In this document: piece by piece, positions 375-7,910 of the stretch
Layout: each line of letters begins with the position of its first letter
Numbering within the stretch: position 1 is the stretch's first letter
Assembly: GCA_017415165.1 (NCBI GenBank)
Contig: JAFQIY010000019.1
Span: forward strand, 1 to 36,213
DNA: 36,213 nt
Reading direction: 5' to 3'
From: Oscillospiraceae bacterium
GTDB taxonomy: Bacteria > Bacillota > Clostridia > Oscillospirales > Ruminococcaceae
The notes under the pieces: generated by a model
What the model saw: only the letters and a program-made list of their open reading frames with translations
The model's database searches: none
Told to the model about the DNA's origin: nothing
Position numbers and translations under genes: made by a program

Positions 375-403
375 TTGACTTATTTGCAACTTAAGTGTAT
401 AAT
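375..403 (+). promoter_or_regulatory. Promoter of the restriction-modification controller gene, with overlapping inverted repeat
   Basis: A -35 box TTGACT (375-380) and a perfect -10 box TATAAT (398-403) are separated by 17 bases, 60 bases before the start of the controller gene. An inverted repeat ACTTA (378-382) / TAAGT (392-396) lies between and partly over the boxes. Controller proteins of restriction systems often bind repeats placed like this to regulate their own promoter, so this is a candidate operator. Promoter confidence is high; operator function is inference. Confidence 0.75.
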
Positions 404-463: not shown

Positions 464-670
464 ATGATCACTATAAAAATTGGAAATAGAATTCGTGAGT
501 TGCGAACTCAAACTGGTCTTAGCCAAGAGAAATTTGCTCAAAAAATAGGAATGGATAGAACTTATTTTGCAAGTGTTGAACTAGGCAAAAGAAACATCTC
601 TATAGTAAACATAGAAAAAATAGCAAATGGATTGAATATTTCGTTGTCCGAGTTGTTTAAAAATGTTTAA
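464..670 (+). CDS. Xre-family helix-turn-helix protein, probable restriction-modification controller (C protein)
   Basis: This 68-residue protein is a single Cro/CI-type helix-turn-helix domain (about residues 7-62). The stretch GLSQEKFAQKIGMDRTYFAS (18-37) gives the two DNA-contacting helices, followed by ELGKRNISIVNIEKIA and a SLSELF end typical of C proteins. Its size, lone-domain build and position just upstream of two methyltransferases and an endonuclease fit a C protein, which delays endonuclease expression after entry into a new host until methylation is complete. The start is the ATG preceded by AGAGGT about eight bases away, below a strong promoter. It could instead be a generic Xre repressor of the whole island. 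The Xre fold is clear; the controller role is inferred from context. Confidence 0.8.
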   Translation: MITIKIGNRIRELRTQTGLSQEKFAQKIGMDRTYFASVELGKRNISIVNIEKIANGLNISLSELFKNV

Positions 671-671
671 T

Positions 672-704
672 GTCCGTTTTATCGGACTATCGAAGATGTA
701 TAAT
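672..704 (+). promoter_or_regulatory. Candidate operator/promoter between controller and methyltransferase genes
   Basis: An inverted repeat GTCCG (672-676) / CGGAC (683-687) with a six-base spacer sits just after the controller stop codon. A perfect TATAAT follows at 699-704, 32 bases before the methyltransferase start. No good -35 box lies at the expected distance, and the repeat occupies that region, so this could be an activator-dependent promoter operated by the controller protein. It could also be a weak stem-loop in a read-through transcript. Function is inferred from layout. Confidence 0.45.
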
Positions 705-736
705 TAGATTAGCGAGAGAAAACGGAGGAACTCATT

Positions 737-1780
737 ATGGGTGCTGCTGAAATAAAAGCGTATAAAACCTCATTGATTAATAACAGAAGATATTTAGGCA
801 ATAAATATAAATTGCTTCCCTTCATTACAGGTGTAGTGAACTCTAAGTGTGAAGGTATTGAAACAGTGGCCGATATTTTTGCTGGCACTGGAGCTGTATC
901 TTCTGCATTTACAGATAAAACAATTATCACAAACGATTTGATGTATAGTAATTATATTTGTCACTATGCTTGGTTTGGCGCAGAGGTTTATGACCCTCAA
1001 ACAATTATTGACTATGTAATAAGGTATAATGCTAAACTCAAGTGCGGTGAGAATTATATGACACGTAATTTTGCAGATACGTACTTCAGCAAAAGTGATT
1101 GTGCTAAAATTGGTTATATCCGTGAAGATATTGAGCGCAATTATAAAAAAGGAAATTTGAACAAGAGAGAAAGGGCAATTTTGATAACATCGTTACTTTA
1201 TGCGATGGATAAAATTGCAGTTACCTGCGGTCATTATGACGCATATCGCAAAGGCGCTGAGTTTGATGTTTCATTAGAACTTTATGTTCCGTTAGCAGAA
1301 GTTAATAATAACGCAGAAAACGAGTGTTTCAACGAAGATGCAAACAATCTTGTAAAACGAATTGAAGCAGATCTTATATATATTGATCCACCGTACAATT
1401 CAAGGCAGTATTGTGATGCATATCATCTGCTTGAAAATGTTGCTCGATGGGAAAAGCCCGAAGTGTTTGGCGTTGCTAAAAAAATGGACAGAAGCAGTAT
1501 GAAAAGCAAGTATTGTACAACAAGTGCAACAAAGGCTTTTGAAACACTAATTAATGACATTAAGGCTAAATACATATTGCTCTCTTATAACAATATGGCT
1601 GAAAAAGGAAACAGTCGCTCCAACGCCAAAATTTCTGATGAAGATATAATGAGAATTTTAAGCAAGAAAGGTACAGTTAAGGTGTTTGAGGAAAGCTATA
1701 AAGCCTTCACTACTGGGAAATCTGACATTGAAGAAAATGCCGAAAGACTGTTTCTTTGCACTTGTTTTAACGAGGAGTAA
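737..1780 (+). CDS. D12-class adenine-specific DNA methyltransferase (first of two)
   Basis: This 347-residue protein transfers a methyl group from S-adenosylmethionine to N6 of adenine in a specific DNA site. The order of motifs is that of the D12 (alpha/Dam-like) class: motif X at about residues 16-30 (RRYLGNKYKLLPFI), the SAM-binding motif I DIFAGTGAV at 46-54, then the target-recognition region, and the catalytic DPPY at 217-220 within IDPPYNSRQY. The start has a GGAGG eight bases upstream. The stop lies five bases before a second methyltransferase, so the two are co-translated. A pair of adenine methyltransferases next to one endonuclease is expected where the recognition site is asymmetric and each strand needs its own enzyme. 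Class assignment is secure; the target sequence cannot be read from here. Confidence 0.9.
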   Translation: MGAAEIKAYKTSLINNRRYLGNKYKLLPFITGVVNSKCEGIETVADIFAGTGAVSSAFTDKTIITNDLMYSNYICHYAWFGAEVYDPQTIIDYVIRYNAKLKCGENYMTRNFADTYFSKSDCAKIGYIREDIERNYKKGNLNKRERAILITSLLYAMDKIAVTCGHYDAYRKGAEFDVSLELYVPLAEVNNNAENECFNEDANNLVKRIEADLIYIDPPYNSRQYCDAYHLLENVARWEKPEVFGVAKKMDRSSMKSKYCTTSATKAFETLINDIKAKYILLSYNNMAEKGNSRSNAKISDEDIMRILSKKGTVKVFEESYKAFTTGKSDIEENAERLFLCTCFNEE

Positions 1781-1785
1781 AAACG

Positions 1786-2715
1786 ATGATACAATCACCG
1801 CTTAACTATACCGGTGGCAAATTTAAATTGTTACCTCAAATATTGCCGCTTTTTCCTAAAGACATAAATGTCTTTGTTGATTTGTTTTGTGGCGGCTGTA
1901 ATGTTGGTATAAACATTGATAGTAATCGTGTTATTTACAATGATCTTAATGAGAATTTATTATACTTGTACAATACATTTAAAAATCTAGATAAAAAATC
2001 TGTTTTAGATTGGATTTATCAGATTATTGAAAAATACAATCTGTCTTTAGTTAGTGAAAACGGTTACTATTATTATGGTTGCGAAAGCAGTAGAGGTCTT
2101 GGAGACTATAACAGAGATAAATTTCTAAAACTCCGTGCAGATTTTAATGAGAGGCACGCAAAAGGCAACTTTGATTATTATTACTATGTAATGCTCTACG
2201 TAATAATCGTATATGCCTTTAACAATCAAATTCGTTTTAATTCTAACGGTGAATTCAATCTGCCTGTTGGAAAATGTGATTTTAACAAGAAAATGGAGCA
2301 AAAACTTGTAGAGTTCATAGATAGAATCCAAGCGCAAAACTGTACATTTACTTGTTGCGATTTTAGAGAATTTGATACATCAGCCCTAACCCCGCAAGAT
2401 TTTGTGTATGTAGACCCCCCATATTTAATCACCTGCGCTACATATAACGAGCAAGGTGGTTGGGATGAAACAACTGAAAAAGATTTACTTGCATTCTTAG
2501 ATGAATTGCATAGTAAGCATATTCGATTTGCATTATCTAACGTTTTGCGGAGCAAAGGGAAGGAAAATAAGATGCTAATTGAATGGTTAGAGAAAAACTC
2601 CGACAAATATACAGCCATATCGCTCAATTATAGTTATTCAAACTCTAACTATCAAACTAAAGACAAAACATCCGTCTCTGAAGAAGTGCTAATAATGAAT
2701 TATCAACAAAACTGA
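1786..2715 (+). CDS. D12-class (Dam-like) adenine-specific DNA methyltransferase (second of two)
   Basis: This 309-residue protein is a second SAM-dependent N6-adenine methyltransferase, closer to Dam/DpnM than its neighbour. Motif X is NYTGGKFKLLPQI (7-19), motif I is VDLFCGGCNVGI (31-42), the Dam-type FNSNGEFNLPVG stretch is at about 151-162, and the catalytic DPPY is at 210-213. It is only distantly similar to the preceding methyltransferase, so the pair did not arise by a recent duplication. This suits two enzymes that modify the two strands of an asymmetric site. The endonuclease start follows nine bases after its stop, and that gene's ribosome binding site GAGGTG overlaps this stop codon. 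The family call is firm; the role in protecting against the adjacent endonuclease is inferred from context. Confidence 0.92.
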   Translation: MIQSPLNYTGGKFKLLPQILPLFPKDINVFVDLFCGGCNVGINIDSNRVIYNDLNENLLYLYNTFKNLDKKSVLDWIYQIIEKYNLSLVSENGYYYYGCESSRGLGDYNRDKFLKLRADFNERHAKGNFDYYYYVMLYVIIVYAFNNQIRFNSNGEFNLPVGKCDFNKKMEQKLVEFIDRIQAQNCTFTCCDFREFDTSALTPQDFVYVDPPYLITCATYNEQGGWDETTEKDLLAFLDELHSKHIRFALSNVLRSKGKENKMLIEWLEKNSDKYTAISLNYSYSNSNYQTKDKTSVSEEVLIMNYQQN

Positions 2716-2724
2716 GGTGTAAGT

Positions 2725-4830
2725 ATGATCGTTGAAAAAAATCAAATATTTAATTTGATGGATACAAACGGCAGACGAAGTGACGTTCTGAATGCTTTGA
2801 AAATATATTTAGAGATTCTTGAGGAATTAAAAGAGGTTTATCCTACTGAAATCTGGGGAACGTATCCCACTAGTTTATCTCAATTTCTATTTTATGAAAA
2901 AGCGTTAGAAAAATCGAAGGACGTTTTTAAGATTCATGGTAATTACGATAGCTTTATCAATGAACTTGGTGATGATTATCAGACATTCATTGATAGAGAC
3001 GGCAACTGGATCCAAAATAATATTACCAAGTTTGCAAAAGTCTTGGATGAAGCTATAGAAAAACGATCTCGTCACTATACAAGCAATCTTGTAAAGATGG
3101 GATTTACCACCACTAACCGCAGTATTACCGAAGCAGGATATTCTTATTTGAAGGGTTCTGTGGTTAGAGATGAATTGGAAGAATTATTACCTTTAGATAA
3201 TGTAAATATTGCACTATTTAGACAGTTATCTAAACTTAAAATTTTTGGTTCTTCCAATAATGGAAAGAGACAGTTCTATTCTCCATTTATTATGGCACTT
3301 GTTTTGCTATTAAACAACGAAACTATTGATGAACATAGTTTTGAGGTTGTTGTTCAAGGCCTTTCTCCATACAGTAGCGATGAAATTAAAGAAGCTATTC
3401 GAAACAACGAGATAAGCGTTGCTGAACTGGAAGAATCTATTCGCAATATAGACATTACTATTCCAGAAGAGTTGATTGGAAAACATGATGTTGATTTCGA
3501 TGTTTTCAAAAACATTTTTAAGGGTTCAAAAAAGAACGATTCAATATCTAAGCTTTATTATGATTTCTTTGTTGTTTTGAGAGATTTCAGAAACAACAAG
3601 ACTCAAGAAACATATGCCAACTTGATTAAATGTTTGGATCAAGATAACATTGCAACTATATACAAAGCGTTCGGGTATGGCAAAGCTGTTTTTGCCGCCG
3701 GGAATAGAGGTAATCGGCACAATCTTGAGCGATTCCTAGAGAAAAACGCAAATCACCCATTGTTAATTTCTGAAGATTTTGTAGGTGAGTTTTACACTGC
3801 TTTTACGAGATCTAAATGGATTGACGGAATTAGAGAGTATTCTGACACAACTGTTAGATTATTAAGCGCAACAGGTTTATTTAAGTTCAAGAATTTGCCA
3901 GAATTGTCATACAAAGAAATATTATCTTTAATATTCGATGTTGAACAACTTAGGCAAAATGTTTTTGGCGAGATGACTGATGAAGAATATGCTAACTATG
4001 AAGAAACGGAAGATTCTTACTTTGGCAAGAACATTCCGTTTGTGAAGATATTTAATTATTCTCACGATGATATTTCTGCAATAACATCTAAATTAGAAAG
4101 ACTACTTGGAGTTAGCGCCGCAACTGATGTTAAGAAGTTTCTTAATGATCAAAAAAATTCTGACTTTATTGCACACATTAATGATAAGTATCCTAAAGAA
4201 AAGATTATGGAACTTCTTCCGATGTTCTCTGATCGAAAGAAAGATAACCAAATCAAAAAAGAAGTTAACGATGCGGCAACAGTGCCAACTATATACGAGT
4301 ACATTATTGGAATTGCTTGGTATTATATTTCAAACAAAGAGTTTGATCTGTATAACAGCTTGAATTTAACATTAAATGCCGATTTTGAACCTGTTATTCA
4401 TGCAGGAGGCGGAGATGGCGATATCGTAATACACTATGAAGAAATCATTATAATGCTCGAAGTAACACTTATGAATAAGCAGGCTCAAAAGCGTGGCGAA
4501 TGGGAACCAGTTTTAAGACATTCGCTTAACCTTAAAGCTACTAATGAGCCGACAGAAACTATTACATTCTTCATAGCCGATGAACTTGACCATAATACAA
4601 TCAACATATGGAGAGCGGTTGCTTCGGTATCGTTGGAATCAACCAATACTCATACAAAAGTAGATGGTGTTGTTATAATGCCTTTTACAAACAAGGAAGT
4701 TTTGGCTTTCCTAGAGAGAAATGTGTATTACAAAGATATTGTAAAAGCTGTTAAAAGTTCTTTTGCAAAAGTACCACAAATCACGGATGTCAAATGGCAC
4801 GAAGAAATAATGTCGAATTTAATTGGTTAA
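2725..4830 (+). CDS. AlwI-family-like type IIS restriction endonuclease
   Basis: This 701-residue protein is the likely restriction enzyme of the system. Its C-terminal part carries HAGGGDGDIVIHYEE (559-573) followed by a hydrophobic strand and LEVTL (578-582). This is a PD-(D/E)XK-type arrangement with D566 and E579, in which the usual lysine position is replaced by threonine in an E-V-T motif. That arrangement, with the following EPVLRHSLNL segment (about 592-601), is characteristic of the AlwI/PleI/BstNBI family as I know it. The long N-terminal region would recognise DNA. Members cut a few bases outside an asymmetric site such as GGATC or GAGTC, which agrees with two separate methyltransferases upstream. 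No frameshift is visible. The family is recognised from motifs, not a search; the exact site is unknown. Confidence 0.75.
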   Translation: MIVEKNQIFNLMDTNGRRSDVLNALKIYLEILEELKEVYPTEIWGTYPTSLSQFLFYEKALEKSKDVFKIHGNYDSFINELGDDYQTFIDRDGNWIQNNITKFAKVLDEAIEKRSRHYTSNLVKMGFTTTNRSITEAGYSYLKGSVVRDELEELLPLDNVNIALFRQLSKLKIFGSSNNGKRQFYSPFIMALVLLLNNETIDEHSFEVVVQGLSPYSSDEIKEAIRNNEISVAELEESIRNIDITIPEELIGKHDVDFDVFKNIFKGSKKNDSISKLYYDFFVVLRDFRNNKTQETYANLIKCLDQDNIATIYKAFGYGKAVFAAGNRGNRHNLERFLEKNANHPLLISEDFVGEFYTAFTRSKWIDGIREYSDTTVRLLSATGLFKFKNLPELSYKEILSLIFDVEQLRQNVFGEMTDEEYANYEETEDSYFGKNIPFVKIFNYSHDDISAITSKLERLLGVSAATDVKKFLNDQKNSDFIAHINDKYPKEKIMELLPMFSDRKKDNQIKKEVNDAATVPTIYEYIIGIAWYYISNKEFDLYNSLNLTLNADFEPVIHAGGGDGDIVIHYEEIIIMLEVTLMNKQAQKRGEWEPVLRHSLNLKATNEPTETITFFIADELDHNTINIWRAVASVSLESTNTHTKVDGVVIMPFTNKEVLAFLERNVYYKDIVKAVKSSFAKVPQITDVKWHEEIMSNLIG

Positions 4831-4854
4831 ACTACACTAAAAATAGGATGTGAT

Positions 4855-5799
4855 ATGTTGACTAAAATATTTATTGACACAAATATCTTTCTTGATATGT
4901 ATCGTTCTAATTTACCCAAAGATATAAAAACTCTTATGCAGTTTTTATATCAGAACAAGAAATATTTCATTACAACGGAACAATCGATCAATGAATTGAC
5001 AAGAAATCGTCATAAAATATTGAACGAGACTTTAGATAATTTTAAAAATCAAACAAGTATAGACAAAGGTACTTCCACTTTTCTACGTTCTTTAGTGTCT
5101 TTTAAAAAATATGATGATTCTTTGAAGAAATTTCGAGAACAGAGGAACTGTATTATCGATGAAATACAGGATAAAATTGCTAATCCACAAAAGGACGATA
5201 TTTTTTCTAAGTTCAAAAAACTTTGTAAACCCGATAATATCATCATGTCGTCTAGTGAAATTATTGATTCGGCAAGTAGAAGAAAACTTGCTGGCAACCC
5301 ACCAACGAGTGACAAATATACTTGTGGTGATGAAATTATTTGGGAGTCATTGCTTTTGTATGAGATTGAGCACAAAGAAGATCTGATAATTGTTTCTAAA
5401 GATAAAACATTTGCCGATAATAGTGAGTTTTTATATGGTGAATACACCTCAAAAACAAGCAAGGTTTTAACAATTTGTCAAGATATTATAGAGGCGTATC
5501 GCCTAGTTGGTGTTGAACTTTCCAGAGAGATTGAACAAGCAGAAGAAAATCTGAAATGGACAGATGTTATAATCACAGCTTTGACAAATCTTGGCGGAGA
5601 AGCAACGTTAACAGAGATTTATAACGAAGCGAGCGATATTCTATATTATAGTGATTGCCAATCTAAAATGAAGAATAAAGCCAAAGAATCAACCATAAGA
5701 GGTATATTACAGAGATTCAGTAGCGATATTCCAAGTGCATATAATGGTAAAAAAGATTTATTCCATCAAATATCTGAAGGAGTTTGGGCGTTAAGATGA
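4855..5799 (+). CDS. PIN-like nuclease fused to a C-terminal winged-helix domain
   Basis: This 314-residue protein begins with FIDTNIFLD, the first strand and acidic residue (D8) of a PIN-type metal-dependent RNase. E47 (INELTR), D159/E160 (CGDEIIWESLL) and D183 (SKDKTFAD) complete a plausible acidic site. The overall pattern, including AGNPP at 146-150, resembles the DUF4935 PIN group. From about residue 236 there is a separate domain with LGGEATLTEIYNEA, IRGILQRFSSD and a terminal GVWALR, a small winged helix I know mainly as an appendage of restriction and defence nucleases. The gene starts 24 bases after the endonuclease. Likely an RNase effector or accessory defence nuclease. Domain calls are good; role is inferred from context. 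Confidence 0.75.
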   Translation: MLTKIFIDTNIFLDMYRSNLPKDIKTLMQFLYQNKKYFITTEQSINELTRNRHKILNETLDNFKNQTSIDKGTSTFLRSLVSFKKYDDSLKKFREQRNCIIDEIQDKIANPQKDDIFSKFKKLCKPDNIIMSSSEIIDSASRRKLAGNPPTSDKYTCGDEIIWESLLLYEIEHKEDLIIVSKDKTFADNSEFLYGEYTSKTSKVLTICQDIIEAYRLVGVELSREIEQAEENLKWTDVIITALTNLGGEATLTEIYNEASDILYYSDCQSKMKNKAKESTIRGILQRFSSDIPSAYNGKKDLFHQISEGVWALR

Positions 5800-5830
5800 T
5801 CTTTATACATTTTTGAAAGGAGGATTGAAA

Positions 5831-6268
5831 ATGTATTCAGCTTATACCATAGCAAAATATATAATCAATTGGTGCAATGATCACTCAATCAGAATAACAA
5901 ATTTAAAACTACAAAAGCTTTTATATTTCCTACAAGGTGAAATTGTAAAACGAACTGGAAATCAACTAATTAAAGAGGATTTTTATGCTTGGCAGTTAGG
6001 CCCGGTTATTCCTGAAGTTTATAATGTGTTTTCTATATATTCATCCTCAACAATTCCAAAACAAGAATTAAACGTCTCTATTGATCCTGAATTAGAAACA
6101 CATATAGGTTCAGTTCTATCGAAATATGCAAGAAGGTCAGCATGGGATTTAGTTGATTTATCGCATTGCCAAGACCCTTGGAAATACAATTATCAAATCT
6201 TTGGTGATAAATCAATTATTCCATTTAAATCAATCGAAGACTTTTTCAAAGGGGCGGATAATCAATGA
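5831..6268 (+). CDS. Panacea-domain (DUF4065/SocA-like) antitoxin-type protein
   Basis: This 145-residue protein shows the Panacea signature: TIAKYIINWCN near the start, then ITNLKLQKLLYFLQG (about 22-36) and FYAWQLGPVIPEVYNVF (about 50-66). The domain is known from SocA, from phage GepA-like proteins and from PanA antitoxins, which neutralise many unrelated toxins encoded beside them. The ATG is chosen because AAAGGAGG (5816-5823) lies seven bases upstream; an in-frame TTG further upstream would sit on top of that site. The stop overlaps the next start in an ATGA arrangement, so it is translationally coupled to the membrane protein, its likely partner. The family is confident; the antitoxin role here is inferred from gene pairing. 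Confidence 0.85.
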   Translation: MYSAYTIAKYIINWCNDHSIRITNLKLQKLLYFLQGEIVKRTGNQLIKEDFYAWQLGPVIPEVYNVFSIYSSSTIPKQELNVSIDPELETHIGSVLSKYARRSAWDLVDLSHCQDPWKYNYQIFGDKSIIPFKSIEDFFKGADNQ

Positions 6269-7686
6269 CTGATGCGGACAAGAAAGCAGAACTTCAAGAG
6301 TTAATTGAATCCCTATGTGATGTGGGTTTCTCTAAAGATACAAAAAAGATTGATAAATGGATTCAACGATTGAATAAAATTTATGCCAATAAATATAGGC
6401 ATACATACTCTGATATATTTTTCAAACTTCAGGAAATAATCGCCAATTCCGATTCAGAAGTTTTAGAAACATTAGGCGAAAACCTAGATGTGTTAAAAGG
6501 AAAAATAGAATTACTAATAGCTCAAAATTCTGATGATGAGAATTTGAAAATCACTCTTGCAGGATATAAAAAATTAGCAGACCATATCAATCTTGAAATA
6601 GGAAGATACAATTTTATTAAAAATCAATTTTCGGTTACCACAACATCAACTGTTCCTTTAACAACTCCAACTACTGCAACTGTCGATAAAGAATTGGAGA
6701 AAAAGTTTGATAAGTTGTCCGAAGATGTAAAAAACATGCGACCGATTACGACGCAGGCAAAAAAGGAACTTGATAGACTAGATTCTCGGTTAGAAAGTAA
6801 TAAAATATCGTCAATTACTACTCTTACAATCTTTTCCGCTGTCGTTCTTGCGTTTTCGGGAGGTCTAACGTTCGAGGTTGGAATGTTGCAAGGGATGGCC
6901 TCTGCATCTGCCTATAGATTAGTGTTTGTTATTGCATTAACAGGCTTTGTGCTTTTTAACACAATTTTTGCATTACTCTACTTGGTCGGAAAGCTTGCCG
7001 GGAAATCCATAAGCACAAAGTGTCGCTATTGTTCTAGCGATCCTAATAATAGTGGAAACTGCATTTGTGGTGAGGGGACTTGTACAAAAGAATTAGCTAC
7101 AGGAAGTATTTTTTGCAGGATAACACATAAGTATTGTTATGTTTTAATTATTAACATAATTTTACTTTTGGTAATGTACTCTGATTTCTTTTTGTGGTTT
7201 TTCAACGGACAAGCCTCTGACATTCGCTTTATTATTTCACAAAGTATTCCTTTTATTATTTGTGTCATGTTTTTGCTTGGCTATCTTTTTAAGAGAAATA
7301 TGTATGCGTATAGGAACAAATTGAAATTCAAAATGGCAGTATTACAAAAGATTGTTGCCCCTGAAGAAAAAGAAAACAAATTATTTACTCTTTTTGCCGA
7401 AAGTCTTTCGCGTATATTTTTCAAGGAAGCTCTTAATTATGCAGAACTGTATGAAAAACAAATTGTAGGCATTGGCTACATAAGAGCTTTGTGGAGACTA
7501 GAAATTTTTGCCAAAGAACAATTGTTGGAAAGTTCAAAAAATCTTGCCAAAATCTCATTTAAGGAACATAGTTTAAATAAAATAAAATGGAAGCGTTATA
7601 AAAAAATGTTTAAGCAACAATTTAAGCATAAACATATATGCAAACCGAAAGAACAGCAATTAAACTCATTTTCTGTAGATCGCTAA
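6265..7686 (+). CDS. Four-pass membrane protein with coiled-coil and Cys-rich loop, probable partner of the Panacea protein
   Basis: This 473-residue protein matches no named family that I recognise. Residues 1-120 are helical and charged; a Thr/Pro-rich linker (about 124-140) leads to a coiled-coil-like stretch (141-178). Two hydrophobic segments follow at about 183-206 and 217-243, then a loop containing C253, C256, C266, C268, C273 and C284 that could bind a metal, then two more membrane segments at about 290-313 and 322-343. The last 130 residues are basic and soluble. The start overlaps the Panacea stop by four bases. Membrane effectors that depolarise or permeabilise the cell are common toxin partners in defence islands, so an effector role is plausible but unproven. 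Confidence 0.6.
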   Translation: MTDADKKAELQELIESLCDVGFSKDTKKIDKWIQRLNKIYANKYRHTYSDIFFKLQEIIANSDSEVLETLGENLDVLKGKIELLIAQNSDDENLKITLAGYKKLADHINLEIGRYNFIKNQFSVTTTSTVPLTTPTTATVDKELEKKFDKLSEDVKNMRPITTQAKKELDRLDSRLESNKISSITTLTIFSAVVLAFSGGLTFEVGMLQGMASASAYRLVFVIALTGFVLFNTIFALLYLVGKLAGKSISTKCRYCSSDPNNSGNCICGEGTCTKELATGSIFCRITHKYCYVLIINIILLLVMYSDFFLWFFNGQASDIRFIISQSIPFIICVMFLLGYLFKRNMYAYRNKLKFKMAVLQKIVAPEEKENKLFTLFAESLSRIFFKEALNYAELYEKQIVGIGYIRALWRLEIFAKEQLLESSKNLAKISFKEHSLNKIKWKRYKKMFKQQFKHKHICKPKEQQLNSFSVDR

Positions 7687-7871: not shown

Positions 7872-7910
7872 AATTAAGGGTATCGAGTTTGTTGCTCGGT
7901 ACCCTTAATT
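7872..7910 (-). terminator. Rho-independent-like terminator of gdhA
   Basis: A 16-base arm at 7872-7887 pairs with 7895-7910 (CTCGGTACCCTTAATT) with one G-T wobble and a seven-base loop. It sits 56 bases downstream of the gdhA stop on the minus strand and is followed there by TTTGTTTATT. The GGTACC-containing core closely resembles the terminator at 36028-36062. Confidence 0.75.

Follow-up and report, generated by a model that had tools for sequence, protein, structure and literature searches.

The contig of an Oscillospiraceae bacterium analyzed here (36,213 nucleotides; hereafter the window, which is the entire contig C15) carries three genes on the plus strand, at positions 4855-7686, directly behind the gene of an AlwI-family restriction endonuclease, raising the question of whether these genes form a defense or toxin-antitoxin module and, if so, which of them belong to it. 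An initial annotation had proposed an undescribed module composed of a PIN/winged-helix nuclease, a Panacea protein and a four-pass membrane protein (MP). Part of this proposal was retained, namely the conserved pair, the large size of MP and the PIN protein as an accessory of the restriction-modification (R-M) system; the term undescribed and the view of the PIN protein as a second effector of the pair were not. Based on sequence comparisons, Panacea and MP are probably a type II PanA-PanT toxin-antitoxin pair that closes an AlwI-type R-M operon acquired by horizontal transfer.

As annotated, three open reading frames (ORFs) follow the endonuclease gene on its own strand, the last two of which make up the pair. 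The first partner (5834-6268, plus strand) encodes a stand-alone Panacea protein of 144 amino acids (aa), the predicted PanA antitoxin, which matches SocA_Panacea (PF13274, E 3.3e-19) and phrog_1281 (E 2.1e-38); searches of this protein against PDB sequences returned nothing useful. Its ATG start is closely preceded by AGGAGG, and the alternative start is a TTG at 5813. The protein contains the GPV motif, reported as the Panacea signature and as critical for neutralization (Kurata et al. 2022, PMC8832971). The second partner (6265-7686, plus strand) encodes MP, a putative PanT membrane toxin of 473 aa, and the two genes share the four bases ATGA at 6265-6268, in agreement with the overlap first noted.

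The association of these two genes extends far beyond the window, to a diverse family present in numerous bacteria of the gut. Searches with an alignment of six MP proteins identified 11 viral contigs and 70 genome loci, 8 of them from Helicobacter and nearly all the remainder, according to record titles, from Bacillota. A same-strand Panacea gene was found upstream of MP at 64 of the 70 genome loci, and this count is not circular because the scan was seeded with MP relatives only; the co-occurrence check put forward by the initial annotation was thus strongly positive. A strict distance of -60 to +120 nt was respected at 56/70 loci (-4 nt for the pair of the window), and the 8 loci with a looser spacing mostly have a doubtful MP start or an apparently broken frame. 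Panacea was also upstream of MP in all 11 viral contigs and, in sets that overlap with the previous ones, in 3/3 phage records, in 8 of the 10 non-self genomes with MP relatives among 390 in the class (missing at L018 and L024), and in 4 of 5 further new genomes (missing at L169). The match at L024 (G312) was set aside as an unrelated ORF, which we take to be stress-protein-like. Single-protein searches with MP found no relatives in the viral contigs scanned and no match in plasmids. A Panacea/MP-like pair, annotated as hypothetical, is present in the Streptococcus satellite phage Javan54 (L014, 2886-4243).

Seen from the Panacea side, none of 30 Panacea loci of the phylum, each examined over roughly 3 kb, had an MP relative: MP is one among many Panacea partners, yet faithful to Panacea. 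In a tree built from 103 Panacea sequences, 69 of them with an MP partner, the partner label changed 3 times versus 28.7 times in shuffles, this being a quick tree with long-branch warnings in which 2 of the 30 phylum loci gave no usable row. The two partners also coevolve, with a mirror correlation of 0.70 over 62 pairs (null maximum 0.22 over 500 permutations) to which linkage and shared descent contribute.

MP itself has few recognizable features. No Pfam or NCBIfam profile was matched above its curated cut-off, PADLOC gave no match, and the sole library match was PHROG 5763, of unknown function (E 1.3e-24), which covers residues 6-309. This profile of 283 positions is also matched by the MP proteins of L136, L071 and L125, and the C-terminal part of MP falls outside it. 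A profile built from 45 MP members gave only weak matches to PDB sequences, the best of which (E 0.032) was judged to be due to chance. The protein consists of a helical N-terminal half, four transmembrane (TM) segments and a C-terminal extension of about 135 aa. Hydropathy, the basis of this count, places the segments at residues 187-205, 219-237, 293-311 and 320-338, consistent with the four passes first described. The 62 full-length family members (69 MP proteins with a Panacea partner minus 7 shorter than 220 aa) have a median length of 284.5 aa, and all their TM segments fall within the C-terminal half or the middle of the protein. Three segments occur in 58 of them and four in the remaining 4 (the window, L138, L136 and L100). 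At 473 aa, MP is indeed the unusually large partner it had been taken for. The distribution of lysine and arginine residues places the N-terminus of the family inside the cell; three-pass members would therefore end outside and four-pass members return inside. The most conserved soluble residues of the family lie in the N-terminal half and include R45, Y48, N73, D106, H107 and L110.

Two regions distinguish the protein of the window from most of its relatives. TM2 and TM3 are joined by a cysteine-rich loop (residues about 253-290; 7021-7134, plus strand) that contains 7 cysteines; at least four cysteines in this loop were found in 5/62 members (the window, L138, L136, L100 and L064), and C253, C268, C273, C284 and H288 are conserved across the window, L138 and L136. 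The retention of these cysteine and histidine residues suggests that the loop may bind zinc or be redox-active. Only the proteins of the window, L138 and L136 are prolonged at the C-terminus, by roughly 118-137 residues. A relative of MP with 555 aa (L169, 7621-9288, G806) displays five hydrophobic segments and a larger cysteine-rich loop; it has no Panacea gene upstream, and a gene encoding an XRE-like helix-turn-helix (HTH) protein occurs ca. 900 nt ahead of it, raising the possibility that Panacea was exchanged for another partner.

These features allow a mechanism to be proposed. Most likely, PanA binds MP directly and keeps it inactive, the cytosolic helical N-terminal half of MP being the likely contact. 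The paired TM hairpin would target the inner membrane, which it would most likely depolarize, and the loss or engagement of PanA, upon phage infection or loss of the cassette, would free MP and arrest the cell. In the branch that includes the window, the toxin would have gained its cysteine-rich cytosolic loop, the fourth TM segment and a cytosolic C-terminal extension. The computations themselves establish the gene order, the conserved pairing, coevolution, purifying selection, the TM pattern and the active-site residues of PIN; for MP as a putative toxin, we infer toxicity, depolarization, neutralization by PanA and a role in defense or addiction. PHROG 5763, so far listed without a function, would in this way gain a likely one.

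Several observations weigh against this interpretation. Panacea is missing at 3/70 loci (L112, L132 and L137, of which L132 and L137 are short MP remnants; contig ends cut 3 others, L101, L129 and L135), and L018, like the 555-aa protein of L169, carries MP-like TM parts without Panacea. Several characteristics of the 473-aa protein are reported for no PanT tested to date in the sources cited. The placement in the family of the Helicobacter toxin discussed below relies on genus and architecture, not on sequence comparison, and the eight Helicobacter genomes compared there were chosen for carrying the MP family.

The genetic environment of the pair is that of an R-M operon. The region 464-7686 is a tightly packed, plus-strand array of seven genes separated by 66, 5, 9, 24, 34 and -4 nt, in that order, with ribosome-binding-like sequences upstream of the start codons. 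It begins with a 68-aa HTH protein (464-670, plus strand; HTH_3, E 4.4e-14), which, judging by its position, is a probable R-M controller or operon regulator. This gene is followed by two D12-class adenine methyltransferases, the first at 737-1780 (plus strand; MethyltransfD12, E 1.1e-33; PADLOC MTase_II, E 1.7e-151) and the second, of D12/Dam type, at 1786-2715 (plus strand; MethyltransfD12, E 9.5e-38; TIGR00571 above cut-off), and by the 701-aa AlwI-family type II restriction endonuclease at 2725-4830 (plus strand; RE_AlwI, E 1.9e-36; PADLOC REase_II, E 1.2e-105), the combination expected of an AlwI-type R-M system. The PIN_12 gene, Panacea and MP complete the array. Ahead of the entire operon, a promoter-like sequence (TTGACT-17-TATAAT, 375-403, plus strand) matches the consensus at 11/12 positions and is proposed as a promoter candidate by way of suggestion only, the scan having returned 28 sites versus 34.4 expected by shuffling. 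Similarly, a terminator-like hairpin of 17 pairs follows the cassette (7872-7910, plus strand) in a scan whose 4 sites versus 3.2 expected make for a weak statistic. The cassette has a guanine-plus-cytosine (GC) content of 33.1% versus 44.8% in 7966-36213 and thus appears to have been acquired. Around the neighboring gdh gene, where an empty site was sought in 4 of 8 relatives, gene order varies.

The cassette was found in a second genome. A Clostridia metagenome-assembled genome (L138) aligns to positions 1325-7617 of the window at 90.6% DNA identity, gene content and order being preserved; the match begins inside methyltransferase 1 because the retrieved flank begins there. Identity declines along the block, with 95.5% for methyltransferase 2, 95.9% for AlwI, 92.0% for PIN, 88.1% for Panacea and 81.8% for MP. 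The ratio of nonsynonymous to synonymous divergence (dN/dS) is 0.01-0.19 for all genes measured, with 0.112 for MP, 0.194 for Panacea and 0.063 for PIN, revealing purifying selection across the cassette. This selection and the conserved gene order make the arrangement more than a chance observation. Synonymous divergence (dS) climbs along the block, from 0.25 to 0.29 for the R-M genes and 0.30 for Panacea to 0.60 for PIN and 0.88 for MP, and the shared block is therefore a mosaic. This threefold spread gives the impression that PIN and MP each underwent an exchange of their own.

Whether the pair has any functional tie to restriction is the question on which the alternatives differ most. The pair might only stabilize a mobile R-M cassette by addiction, or travel in it as a passenger, an explanation to which we give serious weight while judging it somewhat less than an even chance. 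Low GC content and block transfer favor it, as does the dS variation, which points to mosaic exchange, and so does the occurrence of several family members on phages and viral contigs. Outside Helicobacter, moreover, the family is mostly found away from R-M genes: R-M queries matched 2/62 genome loci (L136 and L138), a count that leaves aside seven methylase-motif matches and one C5-like ORF (L121). Addiction leaves unexplained, however, the repeated placement of the pair near R-M genes in Helicobacter and the fact that all three long forms with a cysteine-rich loop, from two lineages, are located in or beside R-M operons.

The same placements lend some support to a guard function, in which the pair, perhaps together with PIN, would watch over the R-M system, PanA releasing MP and shutting down the cell when a phage inhibits restriction or when DNA ends accumulate. 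Such a guard role is plausible, and we put it forward only tentatively, behind simple addiction. The pair and PIN share one operon-like array with the R-M genes and were retained together in L138. In L136/L015, the long MP and its Panacea lie 1.1 kb downstream of hsdR-hsdS-hsdM, and in two Helicobacter genomes (L073 and L074) the pair separates hsdR from hsdM and is encoded on the other strand. A PF02384 methylase occurs at most 5 kb away from the pair in 5/8 Helicobacter genomes, versus ca. 0.35 expected (64 matches in ca. 16 Mb), and near 1 of the 6 other Panacea genes of the same genomes; given the close kinship of L072 and L073, these five cases are not independent. Against a guard function stand these kin relationships, the low count of R-M matches outside Helicobacter and the distribution of AlwI systems. 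None of the 12 other AlwI loci of the class had the pair by profile, two of them being cut by contig ends; L192 and L193, whose AlwI proteins are nearest to that of the window, end within about 140 nt past the gene. A general rule by which AlwI systems carry a Panacea/MP pair was rejected on this count. Likewise, no PIN or Panacea was nearby in the 3 of 67 records of AlwI plasmid relatives that were viewed (H24, H25 and H28). Two genomes, the window and L138, showed AlwI, PIN, Panacea and MP together.

Other cargo was observed around AlwI genes. At L187 (1928-7488, G341), the genes behind AlwI, on its strand, encode a Panacea-like protein that narrowly misses the Pfam cut-off (24.2 versus 25.7 bits), two unassigned ORFs and a SIR2_2 protein; AlwI is thus trailed here by Panacea-like cargo of another kind than in the window. 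At L190 (5034-8734, G016), the neighbors flanking the AlwI gene are a protein that ends in an HNH_2 domain and an HTH-ImmA/IrrE protein, the latter followed by a DUF4411 PIN protein.

A more elaborate version of the guard hypothesis is conceivable, in which the operon would be layered: AlwI restriction first, then the R-M-linked PIN nuclease, and finally a Panacea-held depolarizer freed once restriction has been blocked or overcome. In the enlarged toxin, the cysteine-rich cytosolic loop and the C-terminal extension would then serve as an integral domain for sensing or assembly, making this branch a defense effector instead of a plain toxin. Taken jointly, these two propositions are speculative and, in our estimation, rather unlikely. 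More generally, the analysis ties a widespread, little-studied Panacea/membrane-protein pair to R-M operons in two phyla, and this link makes it testable whether Panacea antitoxins sense restriction failure. If true, the enlarged form as a gated effector would illustrate a route from a simple membrane toxin to a regulated defense protein.

Instead of being a toxin, MP might also be a channel, an exporter or a signaling protein under the control of Panacea. Its large size and cysteine-rich loop would suit such a role, as would a ThrE match that missed the cut-off (E 0.0098); yet the occurrence of the family on phages and a satellite phage and its rapid coevolution with an antitoxin domain fit a toxin better, and we regard this alternative as improbable.

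There remains the first of the three genes, which encodes a PIN_12 nuclease of 314 aa with a C-terminal winged-helix-like stretch (4855-5799, plus strand). Its annotation as a PIN/winged-helix nuclease was correct for the PIN domain (PIN_12, E 2e-18), the winged helix being the weakest part (DUF7669, E 0.21). The acidic residues D8, E47, D159 and D183 are kept in 6/6 aligned PIN_12 proteins; the catalytic acids of a PIN domain, a mark of VapC-type toxins, are thus present. In size and context the protein departs from VapC-type toxins, which are small and have their own adjacent antitoxin, since it reaches 314 aa and has the AlwI gene upstream. Besides the window, five PIN_12 loci above cut-off were found in 109 genomes, and in 3 of these 5 the gene is inside or beside an R-M operon: it adjoins a DNA methylase at L206 and lies between hsdS and hsdR at L208 and L209, an ImmA/IrrE-type protease being the neighbor at L210 and an apparent prophage the setting at L207. 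These relatives bear out the suggestion of a restriction accessory, and the PIN protein is best read as a separate, recurrent accessory nuclease of R-M systems. PIN proteins are common toxins, and this one is encoded 34 nt upstream of Panacea, but the idea that Panacea neutralizes it, MP being an unrelated membrane protein, is very improbable and was rejected, as PIN is present at only one of the 64 MP loci with Panacea (L138) and no Panacea was found by profile beside PIN_12 relatives (L056-L058 and L206-L211, read by eye). A second-effector role within the Panacea pair is not supported, PIN having been found with the pair in the window and L138 only. Neither PDB sequences nor the viral contigs scanned with the single PIN protein provided anything useful, the latter yielding no relatives, and 3 of 26 records of plasmid relatives were viewed. 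Two HNH proteins (L057 and L190) have an N-terminal part similar to the winged-helix-like stretch; this stretch accounts for the match at L190, which was not counted as a PIN relative. At L057 (269-2127, G122), it is associated with an apparent HNH motif after an ATPase-like gene, in an arrangement that, by eye, is Septu-like.

Comparison with known systems indicates which part of this locus is new. Kurata et al. validated nine PanA-PanT pairs, three of them with membrane toxins (PMC8832971), and with Panacea-neutralized membrane toxins already published, the claim that MP is of an undescribed kind had to be abandoned. One of them, PanT_Hel.sp., combines a coiled coil at its N-terminus with TM helices at its C-terminus and depolarizes membranes without SYTOX uptake. 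In the eight Helicobacter genomes carrying the MP family, 8 of the 14 Panacea genes have an MP-family partner, and none of the other 6 is paired with a protein bearing a group of TM segments at its C-terminus, so that MP relatives are the only Panacea partners of this build there. The MP family has this same architecture, a stand-alone Panacea directly upstream and Helicobacter relatives; one of these, Helicobacter sp. 13S00477-4 (L078), comes from the same reptile study as 13S00482-2, the strain of PanT_Hel.sp. (PMC5566214). The family therefore probably includes PanT_Hel.sp. (WP_095295403.1), from which MP differs by its 473 aa, four TM segments, cysteine-rich loop, C-terminal extension and position inside an R-M cassette. 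MP also exceeds a 281-aa Panacea-neutralized toxin described as relatively large (PMC10440598). In the window and L138, the array is longer than the neighborhood of at most three genes used by Kurata et al., which is a screening rule and not a property of the system; elsewhere the pair mostly appears to stand as two genes.

Other systems resemble the cassette in part. PrrC-EcoprrI and PARIS, referred to as R-M guardians in a 2025 review (PMC12707154), are precedents for a toxic gene lodged within an R-M operon; in contrast to them, the cassette has no PrrC or AAA/TOPRIM domain, with no PrrC-like anticodon nuclease domain in MP, Panacea or PIN, and its host system is type IIS-like instead of type I. 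DarTG2, housed together with RptR in a type I R-M system (PMC12255303), is likewise a precedent, being a toxin-antitoxin pair embedded among R-M genes with a small regulator, but its toxin and antitoxin are unrelated to MP and Panacea. RosmerTA combines a membrane-depolarizing toxin with a role in defense (PMC10440598) and differs by its ImmA-type antitoxin in place of Panacea, occurring beside another AlwI gene (L190). In line with the initial annotation, no description of AlwI, PIN, Panacea and MP in combination was found in the open-access literature searched. What is new here is the enlarged toxin, with its four TM segments, cysteine-rich loop and long C-terminus, and its location in an R-M cassette.

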